A stretch of 64,000 bases of DNA from Psychrobacillus sp. NEAU-3TGS (lineage in GTDB: Bacteria > Bacillota > Bacilli > Bacillales_A > Planococcaceae): positions 1 to 64,000 of the forward strand of contig NZ_JAPNOZ010000008.1 of the NCBI RefSeq assembly GCF_029955155.1, given 5' to 3'. The position numbers were made by a program, and so were the translations under genes. Shown in pieces: positions 1,378-63,145 of the stretch (the first letter of the stretch is position 1; every line of letters starts with the position of its first letter). The notes under the pieces are model-generated. The model was not told the origin of the DNA. It did no database searches and was given only the letters and a program-made list of their open reading frames with translations.

Positions 1378-3090
1378 ATGAGTTTCAAAATGTCAAGACA
1401 ACAGTACGCTTCCATGTACGGTCCAACAACCGGGGATGCTGTACGCCTAGCGGATACTGATCTTTTTATCGAAATTGAAAAAGATTATACGACTTATGGT
1501 GAGGAAGTTGTATTCGGTGGAGGAAAAGTAATTCGTGATGGAATGGGGAGTCATCCGCTTGCAACACGTGACGAGAATATTCCAGATGTAGTTATTACGA
1601 ATGTTATTGTTTTAGATTATACAGGAATTTACAAAGCGGATGTAGCGATTCGTGACGGTAAAATTGTCGCGATAGGAAAAGCGGGAAATCCATTATTAAT
1701 GGATAATGTAGATATCGTCATTGGTGCATCTACTGAAATAATTGCCGGTGAACATAAAATTTTGACAGCTGGTGGTATTGATACACATGTGCATTTCATC
1801 AACCCAGCACAAATTGAGACAGCACTCACAGCTGGACTTACGACATTAATCGGAGGCGGAACTGGTCCTGCCGAAGGTTCAAAAGCAACGACGGTAACTC
1901 CAGGCGAGTGGCATATGCATCGTATGCTAGAAGCGGCAGAAGATATGCCAATCAATGTCGGTTTTTTAGGAAAAGGTCATGCGGCAGCAGAAGAACCGCT
2001 TGCTGAGCAAATTCGTGCAGGTGCAATTGGCTTGAAAGTACATGAAGACTGGGGTGCAACATACTCTTCCATCGACATGTCGTTAAAAGTTGCGGACGAA
2101 TACGATGTGCAAGTGGCGATTCATACAGATACACTAAACGAAGGTGGGTTTGTCGAAAATACAGTCTCCGCTTTCAAAGATCGTGTAATTCATACGTTCC
2201 ATACAGAAGGAGCGGGTGGAGGACATGCCCCTGATATTATTAAAGTGGCGAGTCAGATGAATGTATTACCGGCATCTACTAACCCAACACTTCCTTTTAC
2301 TGTAAATACAATAGATGAGCATTTAGATATGTTAATGGTTTGTCATCATTTAAGTCCTGATATTCCGGAAGATGTAGCCTTTGCGGATTCTCGGATTCGT
2401 GCAGAAACAATAGCAGCAGAAGATATTCTTCAAGATTTGGGCGTTTTTAGTATCACTAGTTCTGACTCTCAAGCGATGGGACGTATCGGAGAAGTACTAA
2501 TTCGTACATGGCAAACAGCGGACAAAATGAAAAAACAACGCGGCAAGTTTGAGAATGATAAAGGAATCGGCGACAACAATCGTGTAAAAAGATACGTTGC
2601 AAAATATACGATTAACCCTGCAATCGCACACGGAATTTCCGAATATGTAGGATCGATTGAAGTAGGGAAATTTGCAGATTTAGTTCTGTGGGAGCCTAGA
2701 TTTTTTGGCGTAAAACCAAGCATGGTACTTAAAGGAGGGATTGCGGTACAAAGCTTAATGGGAGATGCGAACGCTTCTATTCCAACTCCACAGCCGATTC
2801 TTTATCGACCTATGTACGGAACGATGGGGAAAGCGAAATATAAAGCATCGATCACATTTGTTTCGACTGCGGCATATGAAGCGGGTGTACATGAAAAACT
2901 TGGCTTACAAAAAACAGTTCTTCCTGTACATGGTATTCGCAATTTAACGAAAAAAGATATGAAATTAAATGGGGAAACGCCGGAAATCGACGTAGATCCA
3001 GAAACATATGAAGTACGTGTAAACGGAGAGCTTCTAACTTGTGATCCGGTGGACACTGTTCCAATGGGGCAACGATATTTCTTATTCTGA
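1378..3090 (+). CDS. ureC: Urease subunit alpha (catalytic)
   Basis: UreC carries the di-nickel active site. All ligands are present at a constant +3 offset from the Klebsiella numbering: H137 and H139 (THVHF), the carbamylated lysine K220 and H222 (GLKVHEDWG), H249, H275 ([11 protein letters not shown]) and D363 (SSDSQAMGR). The mobile-flap cysteine C322 and its histidine H323 (VCHHL) are also intact. At 570 residues it is full length. The protein should be active once nickel is inserted by UreEFGD, which are encoded directly downstream. Confidence 0.98.
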
Positions 3091-55945: not shown

Positions 55946-55964
55946 AAGGTTGGAGAGTGTATAT

Positions 55965-56899
55965 ATGAGTAAAGTCGTTTTAGCGATTGGCGGTAACGCA
56001 ATCATTAAAGAAGGTCAAAAAGGGACAATTGAAGAACAACGAGAAAACTTGGTTGAGAGTTCTGCACCTGTTCTTGATTTAATGGAGCAAGGTCATACAG
56101 TTGTAATTACTCACGGAAATGGCCCACAAGTTGGTAATACATTAATAAGAGGAGAAATGGCGAAATCAGTAATTCCCGAGTATCCTTAGATGTATATGGT
56201 GCTGAAACGCAAGGTAACTTAGGATATTTAATCCAACAAACTTTTAAAAATAAAATGGCGGAACGTAATATCAATAAAACAATTGCAACAGTTGTAACTC
56301 AATCAGTTGTTTCAAAAGATGATTCTGCATTTGAAAATCCTACAAAACCAATTGGCCCATTCTATTCTAAAGAAGATATGGAGAAAATTGTAGCTGAGCG
56401 AAACTTAACATTCGTTGAAGATGCTGGACGTGGATATAGACGTGTTGTTGCATCTCCAAAGCCAGTTAGAATTGTTGAAAAAGAAGCAATTGAAACTTTG
56501 CTTAACAATGGTATTTCTGTTATTTCCACTGGTGGCGGCGGAATTCCGGTAATTGAAAATAACGGAAAAATCGAAGGTATTGAAGCTGTAATCGATAAAG
56601 ACTTCGCAAGTGCATTACTTGCAGCTGATATTAACGCTGATTATTTATTCATCTTAACTGGTGTTGAACAAGTTGCTATCAACTTCGGTAAACCAAACCA
56701 AGAAAATTTATTAGAAATGACAATTGATGATGCACTTCGTTATTTAGATGAAGGTCAATTCCCTAAAGGAAGCATGGGACCTAAAATCGAAGCTGCGATT
56801 CTGTTCCTACAAAAAGGCGGAAAGAACGTTATCATTACTTCGATTGATAAACTTCAAGATGCAATTGAAGGAAAAACTGGTACACGTATTGTAATGTAA
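55965..56899 (+). pseudogene. allK: Carbamate kinase AllK, one-base frameshift
   Basis: AllK makes ATP and carbamate from the carbamoyl phosphate released by AllFGH. The start ATG at 55965 (MSKVVLAIGGNAI) follows GGAGAG. After IPEYP the frame meets a TAG at 56187. Adding one T at 56186-56187 would continue as LDVYGAETQGNLGYLIQQ, followed by the intact remainder (STGGGGIPV, GSMGPKIEAA) to a normal end. The total of about 311 residues would be standard. The whole pathway needs this enzyme, so a sequencing error is as likely as a real loss. Confidence 0.88.
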
Positions 56900-58446: not shown

Positions 58447-58485
58447 ATAACCACTTCTCAAAATCAGAGAGGTGGTTATTTTTTT
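58447..58485 (+). terminator. Rho-independent terminator of the M20 gene
   Basis: ATAACCACTTCTC pairs with GAGAGGTGGTTAT, with one G-T pair, followed by seven T. The stem is nearly the same as the pucG terminator at 31172. Confidence 0.93.
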
Positions 58486-58808
58486 GCGTTTTGGATTTAA
58501 TATATGTGGATTACTTTTGGCGTTCAACTATTAGAGTTTTTTAAGATGCATTATCTGTCTTGGTATTAATCAGCCAACTTCAGAGCCTGTCTGTTCTTCT
58601 AGTAGTCATAAATTATATAAAGTCTTTTTAAGTAATCAATGAGATGTAATTTTTAGAAATTTCAATAAAAGAGTATAATAGACCTATTATAATTTTCTGT
58701 CATTTGTAAATAAAAAATACTAGTGTCGACAAAAAATGATAAGTTCTTTATACTATTATAGTAATATGAAATCGTGATATTAGTACTATTATACTTATAA
58801 TTGAAAAA
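58486..58808. other. AT-rich region preceding the riboswitch
   Basis: No gene is present. Candidate -10 boxes (TATACT at 58791 and others) lie close to the riboswitch, but no convincing -35 accompanies them. No sigma-D-type site was recognised. Confidence 0.35.
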
Positions 58809-58882
58809 GGCAAACTTATCGAAAGGTAAGGACGCAAAGCTACGAGTCTAAAATCCTCTTGGATAATGATAGTCGGGTTGCC
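58809..58882 (+). promoter_or_regulatory. Cyclic di-GMP-I (GEMM-I) riboswitch aptamer
   Basis: The stretch follows the GEMM-I consensus in order. P1 is formed by GGCAA (58809-58813) and TTGCC (58878-58882). P2 is TTATC/GGTAA closed by a GAAA tetraloop. Then comes the conserved GGACGCAAAGC, P3 with the tetraloop-receptor bulges (CTAAAATCC, then GGATAATGATAG), and the final CGGGTTGCC. The bases GCCAA at 58880-58884 can instead pair with TTGGC at 58905-58909, the base of the following terminator. Ligand binding should therefore favour termination, which suggests an OFF switch. Confidence 0.9.
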
Positions 58883-58907
58883 AAGAGTAGTAATGAATGA
58901 TTCTTTG

Positions 58908-58943
58908 GCTATCCCTATCTAGGATTGGGATAGCTTTTATTTT
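58908..58943 (+). terminator. Riboswitch expression-platform terminator
   Basis: GCTATCCC pairs with GGGATAGC around an 11-base loop, followed by TTTTATTTT. It lies 69 bases before the first gene of the operon and competes with the alternative pairing described for the aptamer. Confidence 0.85.
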
Positions 58944-59012
58944 AGACTCCCCAATAAGCAAATAAATGTCACCTAAGAAATGTAGCAGACTATAGGAAAA
59001 AGGAGATTAGAG

Positions 59013-59381
59013 ATGATAGTAGTAGATAAAAGGAAATATAAAATGGCAATTAATGAGGTAGCGAAGGAAGTTCAAGTACAGGTGCATGGATTAATGAGAG
59101 CGGAAGATGTAGAAGGGTATTTGGTAGATTTACAGGATACGATTAATAAAGTCTCAAGACAAGAATATACGTTTGTTATCGATGGGACTCACCAAACTCC
59201 TGTCCCATCAAAAGTTGTACCGCAGTTGGAGCAAACGATGCAATTTTATTCTAGCTTAGGTTTTAAGGATATCCTTGTAGTAAAGCCTGCCTCTAAAATT
59301 GCTCAAGTGCAAATTAGGAATGTGCTTGAAAGAATTGAGTTCACAGGTACATTTATCGATAAAGTACGTCATTCTATGTAA
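59013..59381 (+). CDS. Small STAS/SpoIIAA-like domain protein
   Basis: This 122-residue soluble protein has the alternating strand-helix pattern of a SpoIIAA/STAS-type domain: VQVHGLMRAEDVEGYLVDLQ, then YTFVIDGTH, then YSSLGFKDILVVKPASK. No phosphorylatable Ser-in-DxS motif is evident, so the anti-sigma-antagonist role is not assured. AAAGGAG precedes the ATG. It is the first gene under the c-di-GMP riboswitch and is followed by a GNAT-like gene and a chemoreceptor, suggesting a signalling function. The family assignment is by fold pattern only. Confidence 0.6.
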   Translation: MIVVDKRKYKMAINEVAKEVQVQVHGLMRAEDVEGYLVDLQDTINKVSRQEYTFVIDGTHQTPVPSKVVPQLEQTMQFYSSLGFKDILVVKPASKIAQVQIRNVLERIEFTGTFIDKVRHSM

Positions 59382-59432
59382 TGTTAGATCTACTAGAAAG
59401 AAATTTTAATAATTTGGAAGGAAGATCAATAA

Positions 59433-60143
59433 GTGCAAACAATACAAGAGTTATATACATATGAAATTATAACGAAGGAACAAACAGATGTAATTCCGAA
59501 AGCAGCTGCGTGTTTAGCTCGTTCGTTTATTGGAGTAAATGTTTCAGGGAAATGGGTTCAGGAACCAATGGTAGGTCAATTAAATTTAGATTATGATGAC
59601 TTCTATCAGTTTACATTAGGTTATTTAGAATCTACTGTAGAGCAAGGTTATTGCGCAGTCGCTAAAGATATTCATGAAAATGTTGTTGGCGTGCTTGCTG
59701 GAGACACAAATGCACCAGAGATTATTGGAGAAGATGTATTTGAAGGTTCTTTTTATGATATGAATGTAATTCTGCGTGTACTGGAAGATGTAGATAAACG
59801 TTTCATGGAAGATTACAAAAAGCGAAACGGTGAAGATATTAAAGATGGAGAGTTATTACACTTATTCATGTTAGGAGTGACAGCTGAACATGGCCGCCAC
59901 GAGATTATTCAACAATTAGGAAGTAGATTAATGACAAAAGCATCGTTACAAGGAGTAAAAGCTGTTTTAGGGGAAGCAACAAACCCGAAGTCGATACGTG
60001 TAATGGAAAAATATCATAATATGAAAAAATATAAAGATTTAGAAGGAAATTATATTGTTCATAAATATCAGGATAATAATAAGTTAAATGGTATTCCTGC
60101 AAATATAGCAGATGGAACGTATATCCTTTTGAAGGAGCTTTAA
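59433..60143 (+). CDS. GNAT-like acetyltransferase-fold protein
   Basis: The 236-residue protein has a GNAT-like C-terminal half: LLHLFMLGVTAEHGRHEIIQQL, where the usual acetyl-CoA loop R-x-x-G-x-G/A is not perfect, followed by LMTKASLQGVKAVLGEATN and VMEKYHNMKKYK. The N-terminal half is less distinct. The start is GTG at 59433 with GGAAGGAAG upstream. It lies between the STAS-like gene and the chemoreceptor. The substrate is unknown, and it may bind a ligand without catalysis. Confidence 0.55.
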   Translation: MQTIQELYTYEIITKEQTDVIPKAAACLARSFIGVNVSGKWVQEPMVGQLNLDYDDFYQFTLGYLESTVEQGYCAVAKDIHENVVGVLAGDTNAPEIIGEDVFEGSFYDMNVILRVLEDVDKRFMEDYKKRNGEDIKDGELLHLFMLGVTAEHGRHEIIQQLGSRLMTKASLQGVKAVLGEATNPKSIRVMEKYHNMKKYKDLEGNYIVHKYQDNNKLNGIPANIADGTYILLKEL

Positions 60144-60197
60144 ACTGTTCATCATTACTAATTCAATACTAAATAGGAGTTAGGAGATTTATTTATC

Positions 60198-61382
60198 ATG
60201 GAAGCTATTATGCTAGGTATAATTGTTATCTTATTAGGGGTCTCGGTGTATTTTGCTTACCGTTATTATTCGCTAAAACATCATCCTCATATTAATAAAG
60301 AAATAATAAATGGAATGAAAGAATTGTCAGCAGGTAATATCACAAGCCCAGTGGATGAAAAGAGTGCTGATTATGCTATTTTTAATCAGCTGATTGAGTT
60401 TTTCAGCCTTGTAAGGGAAAAGTTTTTTTCATTTTCAAAAAATGTCCAAGAAAAGGGAGAAAATCTAGCGGAGATCGGTGAATATGCTTCTGAGAAAGCG
60501 GATATTGTTAGAGCGGCAATTGATGAAGTAGGTAGAGGATTACAAAAACAATTAATAGCTACCGAAGAAAGTGCCGAATCAATGGAAGAAATGGCTCAGG
60601 CTATTGAAGATTTATCTGTAAGATCCAATCAAATCTCAGAGCAATCGATCACTACTTTAGAATTGACCGAAGAAGGAAACGGAAAGTTAAAGAATTCCTT
60701 AGAAAAAATGGAGCAGTTTAACCAAACGATCAATACTACATTTGATGCCATAAACAAACTTGGAGAAAAGTCTCACGAAATCGGTACTATTGTAAAAGTG
60801 ATTACAGGAATATCTGAACAAATTAATTTATTGGCATTGAATGCGGCAATAGAAGCTGCCCGTGCTGGGGAACATGGGAAAGGATTTGCGGTTGTTGCTG
60901 ATGAGGTAAGAAAATTGGCCGAACAATCACGCCAATCTTCTTCTGAAGTATCAAATATAGTAAAGAATATACAAGAAGAAACAGACACAGTTGTCAAGTC
61001 AATGCAACAGGGAACAGAAGAATTTAAAGATACAAATACAACTATTGTAGAAGTTGGAACTATGTTCGAAACAATTCTGTCAACTACAAAAATCATTGCT
61101 GAAAACAATGAAAACTCCTCTGCAAGCACAGAAGAACTATCTTCTGCTTCTCACCAGATAATGACAACTATTGTTGAGATAGCTTCTATCTCTCGAGAAT
61201 CTGTTGAAATGTTTGAGGAACTAATAGAAATTAGTGATGATGAACTGCAGACAATGCAAAAGCTTGTTCGTGAAGCTGAGAATCTTGTAGAGTTAAAAAA
61301 TGAGGTTAACAAATTGATATATGCATGGAATGATGGGGTAGAAACAGCAGAAGCTAAAGCTGGTCAAAGTACTGCACAATAA
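60198..61382 (+). CDS. Methyl-accepting chemotaxis-type protein without extracellular sensor
   Basis: This 394-residue protein has one N-terminal membrane helix (about residues 4-23) and then goes directly into a cytoplasmic coiled coil. The conserved signalling tip ([20 protein letters not shown]) is at about residues 209-228. There is no extracellular ligand domain and no clear HAMP domain. It must therefore sense an internal or membrane signal, or a partner protein. It is the third gene of the riboswitch-controlled group and is followed by a terminator. Confidence 0.88.
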
Positions 61383-61403: not shown

Positions 61404-61449
61404 GAGTGCTTCTTATAGGTTGATCCAACTTGTGGGAAGCATCTTTTTT
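61404..61449 (+). terminator. Rho-independent terminator after the second chemoreceptor gene
   Basis: GTGCTTC pairs with GAAGCAT, with further AGGTT/AACTT pairing inside, and six T follow. It separates the signalling operon from the decarboxylase gene. Confidence 0.75.
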
Positions 61450-61492: not shown

Positions 61493-63145
61493 ATGAAGAA
61501 AGTACAAAAGCTTTTTCCTAGTATGGACGGGAATGACTTTCAAAGAGAAGAAATATTATCCTATTTTAGGACTATTTTAACGAAAATAGATGAATTAAAG
61601 GATCCTAACAAATTAACGCTAGGAGAAATGCCCAAATACACAGAGGATTACTATAATCGTGTCATTCAAGAGGCGGATGTTCCGAAAAAGGGAGTGCCAA
61701 TGGAGGAAGTGATCCAAGAACTTCTAAAATTAGTAGAAGGACACCGCTACGTCAATCGAAATTATGTAGCCAATGCAGCGCCCCTTCCGAATATTGCTAG
61801 TATTATCGGAAATTTAGTAATGGTACTAGTCAATGGGAACAATCTTTGGGATGTGGAAGGTCCAGCAGCTGCAACAGCAGAAATTGAGATAACTAGCATG
61901 CTATCTAAACTTATCGGATACGATGAAAGCACCAGTGCAGGATACACAACTTGGGGTGGACAAGGGGCTGTCTTTAACTCTTTACGTCTTGCCATCGCTC
62001 GTTACGCTCCGTCGTCTAATCAAAATGGTGTGCCGCAAAATCTCTATTGCTTCTGTTCTGAGCTTTCACACTATAGTCTGTATAAATCTGTAGAAGCAAC
62101 AGGGATTGGCGTAGAAAACATGATTCGTGTGAAAGCTAATATTGATCATTCTATAAATCTAGAAGATTTAAAAGAAAAAATGGAGCATGTTATTGCTATA
62201 GGCGGCATTCCTCTTTATGTCCTTGCCACAATGGGAACTACTGACACTTTTGGGGTTGATGACATTAGAGGAATAAAGAGGATAGCAGAAGAATTGGAAC
62301 ACACATACGGTATATGTCCAATATATATCCATGCAGACTCTGCGATGGGAGGCATGTATACTTTCTTTAATGATTACAACTTTGAAAGCAATCCTCTCCT
62401 ATTGGAAGATAACGTGAAGGAAGTATTAAATACCTATCAACAGAAGTTTGAACATATCAAACTTGCCGATAGTATGGTCTTTGATTTCCATAAGCTTGGC
62501 CAAACACCATATATTACGAGTTTATTTTTAATCAAAAACAGAGAGTATCTTAAGTATGTTGATTTAGATGTAGCAGAAACGCCGTATGTTGGAAATCGCG
62601 GTTATGGTAGTTATCATACAGGATATACGCTCGAATGCTCACGGATGGGAAGTGCTCTGACAATATATGCGTCTTTATTAGCATTTGGAATAGAAGGCTA
62701 TCAAGAGCTTTTAGCCAACTATATTCGTGTCAATTTTGCTTTTAGAGAGACGTTAACAAAAGAAATTTCGAATGTAGTGATTACGAATGAGGTTTCTCCG
62801 ATTACAACATTCCGTTTTTATCCAGAACAGATAAGATGGAATGAGGAATTGAACGGAATCTTAACGGTAGAAGAAATAACCGAAATTAATCAATTTAATG
62901 ACGATTTCGCAGAAGTAATTGGTGCCGAACGAGATACGGTCTTCTATGGAAATACCAAAAAGCAGCGTCTCGTAAAAGCTGCAAACTCAAACAAACCGGT
63001 ATCCATATATGCACATAAATTTTTTACAATCTCGCCATACTCAACAATAGAAGAGGTAGACCGTTACGTAGGATTTCTAAAAGAACATCTAGCATTCTTT
63101 CAGAAAACAAGTAGTAATAAAAATATGATTCTAACAACAGGTTAA
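61493..63145 (+). CDS. PLP-dependent group II decarboxylase
   Basis: This enzyme of about 550 residues belongs to the glutamate/aromatic amino-acid decarboxylase group. The PLP lysine is K334 in DFHKLGQTPY, the pyridine-binding Asp is in IHADSAMGG, and YTTWGGQGAVFNSLRLA supplies the phosphate-binding region. The ATG at 61493 follows AAGGAGG; the longer frame from 61430 starts inside the preceding terminator. The substrate (glutamate, tyrosine, other) cannot be decided. It lies just after the c-di-GMP-controlled operon but has a separate leader. Confidence 0.85.
   Translation: MKKVQKLFPSMDGNDFQREEILSYFRTILTKIDELKDPNKLTLGEMPKYTEDYYNRVIQEADVPKKGVPMEEVIQELLKLVEGHRYVNRNYVANAAPLPNIASIIGNLVMVLVNGNNLWDVEGPAAATAEIEITSMLSKLIGYDESTSAGYTTWGGQGAVFNSLRLAIARYAPSSNQNGVPQNLYCFCSELSHYSLYKSVEATGIGVENMIRVKANIDHSINLEDLKEKMEHVIAIGGIPLYVLATMGTTDTFGVDDIRGIKRIAEELEHTYGICPIYIHADSAMGGMYTFFNDYNFESNPLLLEDNVKEVLNTYQQKFEHIKLADSMVFDFHKLGQTPYITSLFLIKNREYLKYVDLDVAETPYVGNRGYGSYHTGYTLECSRMGSALTIYASLLAFGIEGYQELLANYIRVNFAFRETLTKEISNVVITNEVSPITTFRFYPEQIRWNEELNGILTVEEITEINQFNDDFAEVIGAERDTVFYGNTKKQRLVKAANSNKPVSIYAHKFFTISPYSTIEEVDRYVGFLKEHLAFFQKTSSNKNMILTTG

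Follow-up and report, generated by a model that had tools for sequence, protein, structure and literature searches.

A conserved operon for predicted STAS-fold and GNAT-fold proteins and a sensor-less chemoreceptor behind a c-di-GMP-I riboswitch in Psychrobacillus

Chemoreceptors without a recognizable sensor domain are known, and to our knowledge the route by which they receive their input is largely open. One such receptor is encoded in the window, by which we mean the whole stretch of 64,000 nucleotides analyzed here (Psychrobacillus sp. NEAU-3TGS, contig NZ_JAPNOZ010000008.1, positions 1 to 64,000 of the forward strand). It is the last of three open reading frames, labeled here P1, P2 and P3, that lie behind a riboswitch for c-di-GMP, the "settle down" signal. 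What does the riboswitch do to these genes, and what are the first two proteins to the receptor? In the reading that we prefer, to which we give about an even chance, the three genes form an accessory chemosensory operon repressed by c-di-GMP; P1 would be the partner of the sensor-less receptor and P2 an optional modulator that binds a small molecule. All three are encoded on the same strand, with intergenic gaps of 51 and 54 bases in the list of open reading frames. The features of the locus are as follows.

58726..58754, + strand: promoter-like site, TCGACA / 17 / TATACT, 10/12 consensus positions, 5' of the aptamer
58799..58885, + strand: c-di-GMP-I (GEMM-I) aptamer, RF01051, 88.6 bits, positions 1-87 of 87
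58868..58919, + strand: predicted antiterminator, 58868-58884 with 58905-58919, 14 pairs, from the minimum free energy (MFE) structure
58907..58944, + strand: intrinsic terminator, hairpin 58907-58935 and U tract, -15.4 kcal/mol
59013..59381, + strand: P1, single-domain protein of predicted STAS/SpoIIAA fold, 122 aa
59433..60143, + strand: P2, protein of predicted GNAT fold, 236 aa, GTG start
59895..59909, + strand: P2 residues 155-159, which replace the CoA-pyrophosphate loop of GNATs (homologue alignment)
60198..61382, + strand: P3, chemoreceptor, 394 aa, signaling domain 60693-61190
61406..61442, + strand: intrinsic terminator 3' of P3 (terminator scan)
61493..63145, + strand: PLP-dependent decarboxylase, neighbor gene, PF00282 at 1.6e-26

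An additional terminator lies 5' of the operon (58447-58479). The genome has a size of 4.42 Mb and holds one RF01051 match (among 150 scored of the 223 first-look candidates), 19 GGDEF matches and 14 matches to the MCP signaling domain, 13 of them above the cut-off.

P3 consists of one N-terminal membrane segment (by hydropathy), a linker and a signaling domain that matches PF00015 with an E-value of 1.6e-42; no sensor domain was found in it by Pfam at E<=1. An earlier note on this DNA, made from the letters, had described just such a chemoreceptor, with a single membrane helix and no sensor domain. Its picture of a cytosolic chemosensory unit held for the three types of protein and needs qualifying as to location, since P3 has a membrane segment. 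Across 30 members of the P3 family, PF00015 was present in all 30, and a sensor domain was found in none at E<=0.01. The domain has the conserved tip of MCPs, where 30 sequences show little or no variation at residues such as N210-L212 and E219-G224, and P3 aligns with residues 311-685 of a dCache receptor encoded in the same window. By its signaling domain, P3 is still to be classed as an MCP despite having no predicted ligand-binding domain.

To place the operon among its relatives, a P2 profile was run against one genome per species, and 66 loci were obtained, 44 of them close (L032-L075) and 22 distant. P1, P2 and P3 followed one another on one strand in this fixed order in 42 of the 44 close named loci, as a search for the gene order suggested in the earlier note would have it; in L052, one of the 42, the P3 open reading frame is short. 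The two exceptions are L068, where P2 stands at the start of the contig, and L074, from a Defluviitaleaceae MAG, which has P2 only and ends just after this gene. All close loci except L074 carry the names of genera of the Bacillales. The order of the three genes was kept in 42 of 44 loci, while the genes for AllG and an M20 peptidase (upstream) and MoxR (downstream) recurred only in L032 among the 44; the association of P1, P2 and P3 is thus more than chance. The riboswitch lay directly upstream and on the same strand in 30 of the 42 triplets, and was absent upstream in 12. At the level of genomes, 34 of 43 with close loci gave an RF01051 match (78 candidates scored per genome, the genome of L037 left out). 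A loss of the riboswitch through loss of c-di-GMP was considered and rejected, as GGDEF proteins were present in 44 of 44 genomes.

Within the family of the window, P2 was found in 34 of 200 genomes, and RF01051 lay within the 1.5-kb flank in 23 of 29 loci of relatives (19/20 and 4/9); of the six loci without it, L029 is cut by a contig end. CheW was present in all 34 P2-bearing genomes, compared with 151 of the 200 related genomes overall (hypergeometric 2.5e-5, indicative only). The divergences of P1, P2 and P3 were correlated (Mantel r 0.75-0.90 in 41 loci, a value reached by 0 of 999 permutations, with no control gene), a pattern that could be explained by vertical descent alone.

The predicted structure of P2 has a GNAT fold, in line with the GNAT-like protein of the earlier note. 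Its closest folds are amine acetyltransferases, namely arylalkylamine/dopamine and polyamine N-acetyltransferases. No Pfam or NCBIfam match was found above the cut-off, and a P2 profile had no significant relative among PDB sequences, the best being a GNAT with an E-value of 0.38 that stood among unrelated proteins. The closest named homologue is from Psychrobacillus lasiicapitis, with 97% identity. In GNATs, the CoA-pyrophosphate loop has the motif Q/R-x-x-G-x-G/A. At P2 residues 155-159, close homologues have Arg in 75 of 75, Glu or Asp in 73 of 75 and Ile or Val in 74 of 75, whereas at the same loop positions 22 distant relatives have Gly in 15, Gly in 16 and Ala or Gly in 22. P2 therefore differs from the amine acetyltransferases both in sequence (13-21% identity) and in the replacement of the glycines of this loop. 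Owing to the loop change, we would not class P2 as an acetyltransferase; with these glycines replaced, it may be a putative binding protein rather than an ordinary enzyme.

Alternatively, P2 could be an active N-acyltransferase with an atypical donor or binding mode, acylating either the amine product of the neighboring decarboxylase or P1 or P3, with the receptor sensing the product. Such an enzyme would fit the strong conservation of P2 (mean column identity of 76% in 19 sequences), the kinship of its fold to amine acetyltransferases and the adjoining decarboxylase gene. However, 73-75 of 75 close homologues have other residues in place of the loop glycines, which the 22 distant ones mostly keep, and we regard an active enzyme as a tentative reading, somewhat unlikely to be right.

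The decarboxylase gene, which the earlier note did not mention, is an addition to it. The gene (61493-63145) is probably a separate transcript, and the terminator at 61406-61442 separates it from the operon here. The nearest NCBIfam models, those for PanP, diaminobutyrate decarboxylase and tyrosine decarboxylase, match it far below the cut-off. A homologue with 58-95% identity was found beside the operon or within 2 kb of it in 27 of the 44 loci: 20 lie 98-623 bp downstream, three lie 1.7-1.9 kb downstream, and four are directly upstream, three of the latter divergent. Among the 17 loci where it is missing, five have a homologue of 50-69% elsewhere in the genome. Of the four other window genes compared, the decarboxylase alone recurs widely. 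In the family set, a decarboxylase homologue of some kind is found in 50 of 200 genomes, and one with at least 69% identity in 13, the next-best having 56%. P2 is present in 11 of these 13 genomes, compared with 34 of all 200 (Fisher 4.5e-8, with the 69% cut set once the gap to 56% had been noticed), and by their coordinates all 11 decarboxylase genes adjoin P2.

In four loci (L046, L054, L059 and L066), the decarboxylase gene is preceded by a gene of the neurotransmitter-symporter family (PF00209), and this symporter gene lies directly behind a c-di-GMP-I aptamer of 59.7-83.9 bits; in two of the four, L059 and L066, P1 itself lacks an aptamer upstream. L053 and L062 have an RF03167 aptamer, a member of the same clan, ahead of the decarboxylase gene. 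Control of the decarboxylase by a riboswitch would hold only for these six loci. In close relatives it was not supported, with no Rfam match in 11 decarboxylase loci (short flanks). A symporter remnant is present in L033, and symporter and decarboxylase genes occur in L156, L157 and L175, the genomes of L156 and L157 being without P2. The adjoining decarboxylase, together with the riboswitched symporter in some genomes, suggests that the cue is an amino acid or the corresponding amine, and the chemosensory module would be an intracellular, perhaps amine-related one. A more specific form would make the GNAT-fold P2 a cytosolic amine sensor and the STAS protein its relay to the sensor-less receptor, with c-di-GMP riboswitches co-controlling the operon and, in some genomes, genes for uptake and decarboxylation; we hold this form to be doubtful.

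The preferred reading further supposes that c-di-GMP represses the operon. The covariance model RF01051 matches the aptamer in full length (88.6 bits, compared with a gathering score of 35; E 3.2e-16), as expected from the well-formed GEMM-I aptamer of the earlier note; the start given there, 58809, is 10 bases late, the true start being 58799. An Rfam scan found no second aptamer in the window, and no RF01051 match was found in 14 control genomes. Transcription would start at about 58761, given the promoter-like site upstream, whose TCGACA is kept in 22 of 25 aligned leaders (exceptions L015, L018 and L043). Between the aptamer and P3 there are two promoter-like sites on the + strand, each with 9/12 positions, and five on both strands, compared with 5.9 in shuffles. 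The earlier note had been ready to give up its reading for want of an aptamer, for want of a conserved gene order, or for a start 3' of the riboswitch; none of these was found, given the 88.6 bits, the 42 of 44 loci and the conserved promoter-like site upstream, from which the start is predicted. A special promoter regulon was also considered and rejected: TCGACAAA-N11-15-TTWATA occurs three times in the genome, compared with four times for the reversed-pattern control.

The terminator platform of the earlier note was recovered as a hairpin at 58907-58935 followed by a U tract (-15.4 kcal/mol). It begins 21 bases 3' of the aptamer and is the single terminator here; a generic terminator scan missed it, its long loop being the probable reason. 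Each of the 31 leaders compared (the window and 30 named loci, with no shuffled control) had a hairpin followed by a T-rich tail. In 38 aligned leaders, the nine pairs of the terminator hold in 97.7% of 342 cells, both sides have changed in 14 cells, and the covariation score was reached by 0 of 500 shuffles. In the MFE fold of the whole leader, the terminator hairpin is unused, and the 3' strand of the aptamer (58868-58884) pairs with 58905-58919, a stretch that includes the 5' arm of the terminator. Folding the stretch 58876-58942 by itself gave the terminator instead of this antiterminator. The 14-pair antiterminator helix is paired in 93.7% of 526 cells in the 38 leaders, compared with 31-63% when slid by 1-3 columns; out of 500 letter shuffles, four reached its pairing percentage and five its covariation score. 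Compared with letter-shuffled partners, the duplex energy had a mean z of -3.1 in 31 leaders (range -1.2 to -5.1), the weakest values, -1.2 to -1.7, being found in four leaders. Changes on both sides occurred in 2 of the 14 pairs, and as many or more were found in 56 of 500 shuffles. For the antiterminator core, covariation was unsupported: in 96 of 300 trials, strands exchanged between loci paired equally well. The antiterminator as a whole shows conservation and only slight covariation.

The platform and the folded aptamer are thus predicted to be mutually exclusive, with little covariation between the strands. Since the folded aptamer needs the same 3' strand, ligand binding should free the terminator, and from this layout the riboswitch is probably an OFF switch. 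The OFF direction, to which the platform points, goes beyond the earlier note, which named none. The nearest known case urges caution. According to the portions of PMC11218506 that concern it, the GEMM-I riboswitch Bc1 precedes the chemoreceptor gene mcpE in the Bacillus cereus group; it bound c-di-GMP and left expression unaltered, and it had earlier been reported as ON in B. subtilis reporters. Binding need not, therefore, mean regulation, and the riboswitch of the window could likewise bind its ligand and be silent, or act as an ON switch, with no repression of the operon by c-di-GMP. The Bc1 platform differs, however, with two terminators and up to 220 bases (PMC11218506, same portions), whereas here a single terminator stands 21 bases past the aptamer and its 5' arm can pair with the aptamer 3' strand in 31 of 31 leaders, which is the usual OFF layout; a silent or ON riboswitch is in our judgment unlikely. 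As far as the same source describes it, the Bc1-mcpE locus resembles ours in having a GEMM-I riboswitch and an intrinsic terminator before a chemoreceptor gene. It differs in that the receptor gene is directly behind the riboswitch, whereas here P1 and P2 intervene, in its two terminators instead of one, and in its receptor, which as a tagged protein has 68.6 kDa and is much larger than P3. By a term search, the main text of PMC11218506 mentions neither a STAS nor an acetyltransferase gene.

P1, which in the preferred reading would partner the receptor, has a predicted STAS/SpoIIAA fold, as the small STAS/SpoIIAA-like protein of the earlier note would have, and in structure it comes closest to entries for SpoIIAA and for the stressosome/RsbS. 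The window protein has no Pfam or NCBIfam match above the cut-off, and no STAS family was found among the 25 of 26 Pfam families listed for 25 P1 members at E<=1. A P1 profile had no significant relative among PDB sequences (the best was a 'binder' chain, E 0.11). P1 is assigned to STAS by its predicted fold and not by a sequence profile. It differs from the single-domain STAS proteins SpoIIAA, RsbS and SiaC in having no STAS profile match (25 of 26 families listed) and in being linked to a receptor gene.

These structural matches also allow a different role, in which P1 does partner switching as an antagonist of a serine kinase, like SpoIIAA or RsbS, or binds CheA, and is not the input of P3. 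A precedent for the latter is CheS, a chemotaxis protein of Sinorhizobium meliloti that consists of a STAS domain only and binds CheA, as summarized in part of PMC12654446 (citing Dogra 2012). Against this role, the position of the SpoIIAA-type phospho-serine, assigned from spacing and place in the helix rather than from a residue-level structural alignment, is occupied by Arg, Thr or Ala in some P1 proteins, and no kinase recurs nearby, the decarboxylase alone recurring among the window neighbors compared. Such a role appears to us unlikely as well, and an obligatory SpoIIAA-like phosphorylation of P1 is a weak candidate, as the serine is not fully conserved. Compared by description in that part of PMC12654446, CheS of Sinorhizobium and Agrobacterium is like P1 a single-domain STAS protein in chemotaxis, but its gene is in the main che cluster of alphaproteobacteria, whereas P1 is tied to one receptor gene.

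The distribution of P1 bears on its tie to the receptor. In an order-wide scan of 261 genomes, the P1 profile matched 42 and the P2 profile 35. By coordinates, P1 adjoins P2 in 33 of the 35; the exceptions are G098, where the contig ends, and G150. The 13 P1 matches away from P2 and the lone P2 were read as 14 stretches. In five genomes (L128, L130, L131, L132 and L133), P1 is directly followed by P3 without P2. None of these five stretches has an RF01051 match (L133 covers just 350 bases upstream), and L128, L130 and L131 retain, by eye, a similar promoter-like string. The P2 profile had no match in four of the five genomes. In the fifth, G150 (the genome of L128), P2 occurs alone about 1 Mb off, at L129, with a GEMM-I aptamer of 81.3 bits directly upstream and, by eye, no clear terminator in the leader. 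The riboswitch is thus present in 30 of 42 triplets with P2, compared with 0 of 5 without it (Fisher p 0.004, an unplanned contrast with two genera behind the five). Within one genus, it is present in the P2-bearing L015, L022 and L025 and absent in the P2-less L128, L130 and L131. Given five P1-P3 operons without P2 or riboswitch, STAS protein and receptor form a separable core that can stand alone, and the riboswitch goes with P2. The earlier note had suggested that the missing sensor might come from the STAS-like or the GNAT-like partner; this putative role is refined by the operons in which the receptor has a STAS protein beside it but neither GNAT gene nor riboswitch. Elsewhere, three further P1-like genes (121-131 bits) have a DUF1456 gene next to them; of five distant ones (41-65 bits), four adjoin a FabH-type synthase and one an MFS transporter.

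That the three genes are co-regulated neighbors without a shared protein function would suit the occurrence of P2 apart from P1-P3, but it is very unlikely given an order kept in 42 of 44 loci, compared with recurrence only in L032 for three of the four other window genes, and given the correlated divergences, though vertical descent alone would give the latter.

Two elements are already known, as far as the sources above describe them: a GEMM-I riboswitch before an MCP gene (Bc1-mcpE, PMC11218506) and a STAS-only chemotaxis protein (CheS, PMC12654446). For the set of P1, P2 and P3, no description was found in the open-licence full-text literature, as judged by titles and the beginnings of abstracts, with most subscription papers outside this scope. 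The earlier note, too, knew of no described system of this composition.

Herein, we describe how the c-di-GMP-repressed accessory chemosensory operon would work. At low c-di-GMP, as in motile cells, the 3' strand of the aptamer would pair with the 5' arm of the terminator and the polymerase would read through. At high c-di-GMP, the folded aptamer would withhold this strand, the terminator would form and the operon would be off. The sensor-less P3 would join CheW/CheA arrays via its standard tip, its input being supplied by the cytosolic P1 encoded alongside. P2 would be an optional add-on, its most likely task being to bind a small molecule, or else an unusual acyl donor, and to relay its bound state to the pair of STAS protein and receptor. 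The predicted cue would be an amino acid or its amine, as suggested by the decarboxylase and symporter genes.

As a case for study, the operon is small, conserved and tractable: a receptor with a dedicated STAS partner and an optional GNAT-fold protein, found in many genera of Bacillales. Through probable transcription attenuation, it also ties chemosensing to c-di-GMP, and it suggests a class of metabolite. With it, swimming cells may be able to sense a metabolic cue from within.

Between the promoter-like site (58726-58754, plus strand) and the aptamer of the P1-P2-P3 operon, an imperfect inverted repeat spans approximately 58757-58793, and comparable repeats were seen by eye in many of the aligned leaders of related operons. 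Could this repeat form a hairpin, or serve as an operator? Aptamers of the c-di-GMP-I type also precede symporter or decarboxylase genes adjoining the triplet in six related loci (L046, L053, L054, L059, L062, and L066).

Two further features were noted in the window:

1543-1822, minus strand: 5' ureB sRNA (RF02514), Rfam match of 59.4 bits
55950-56899: carbamate-kinase-like reading, in two ORFs (55950-56189 and 56255-56899)

The RF02514 match lies in antisense orientation within the gene for urease alpha (1378-3090), and a similar match was found in L057; the signal may reflect no more than conserved coding sequence. An AllG gene lies near the split carbamate-kinase-like reading, of which only the second ORF matched PF00696; the split is possibly a frameshift or a wrong start.

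P1-like STAS genes also occur in other gene settings. In L134, L135, and L136, they score 121-131 bits and are followed by DUF1456 genes. In four genomes (L138, L139, L140, and L141), more distant P1-like genes adjoin genes for FabH-type 3-oxoacyl-ACP synthase III, neighbours that suggest a possible STAS/acyl-carrier link.

The P1-P2-P3 module may be decaying in Halalkalibacterium halodurans (L052), where the receptor ORF comprises only 89 codons and a single RF01051 match (48.5 bits) was found in the genome.
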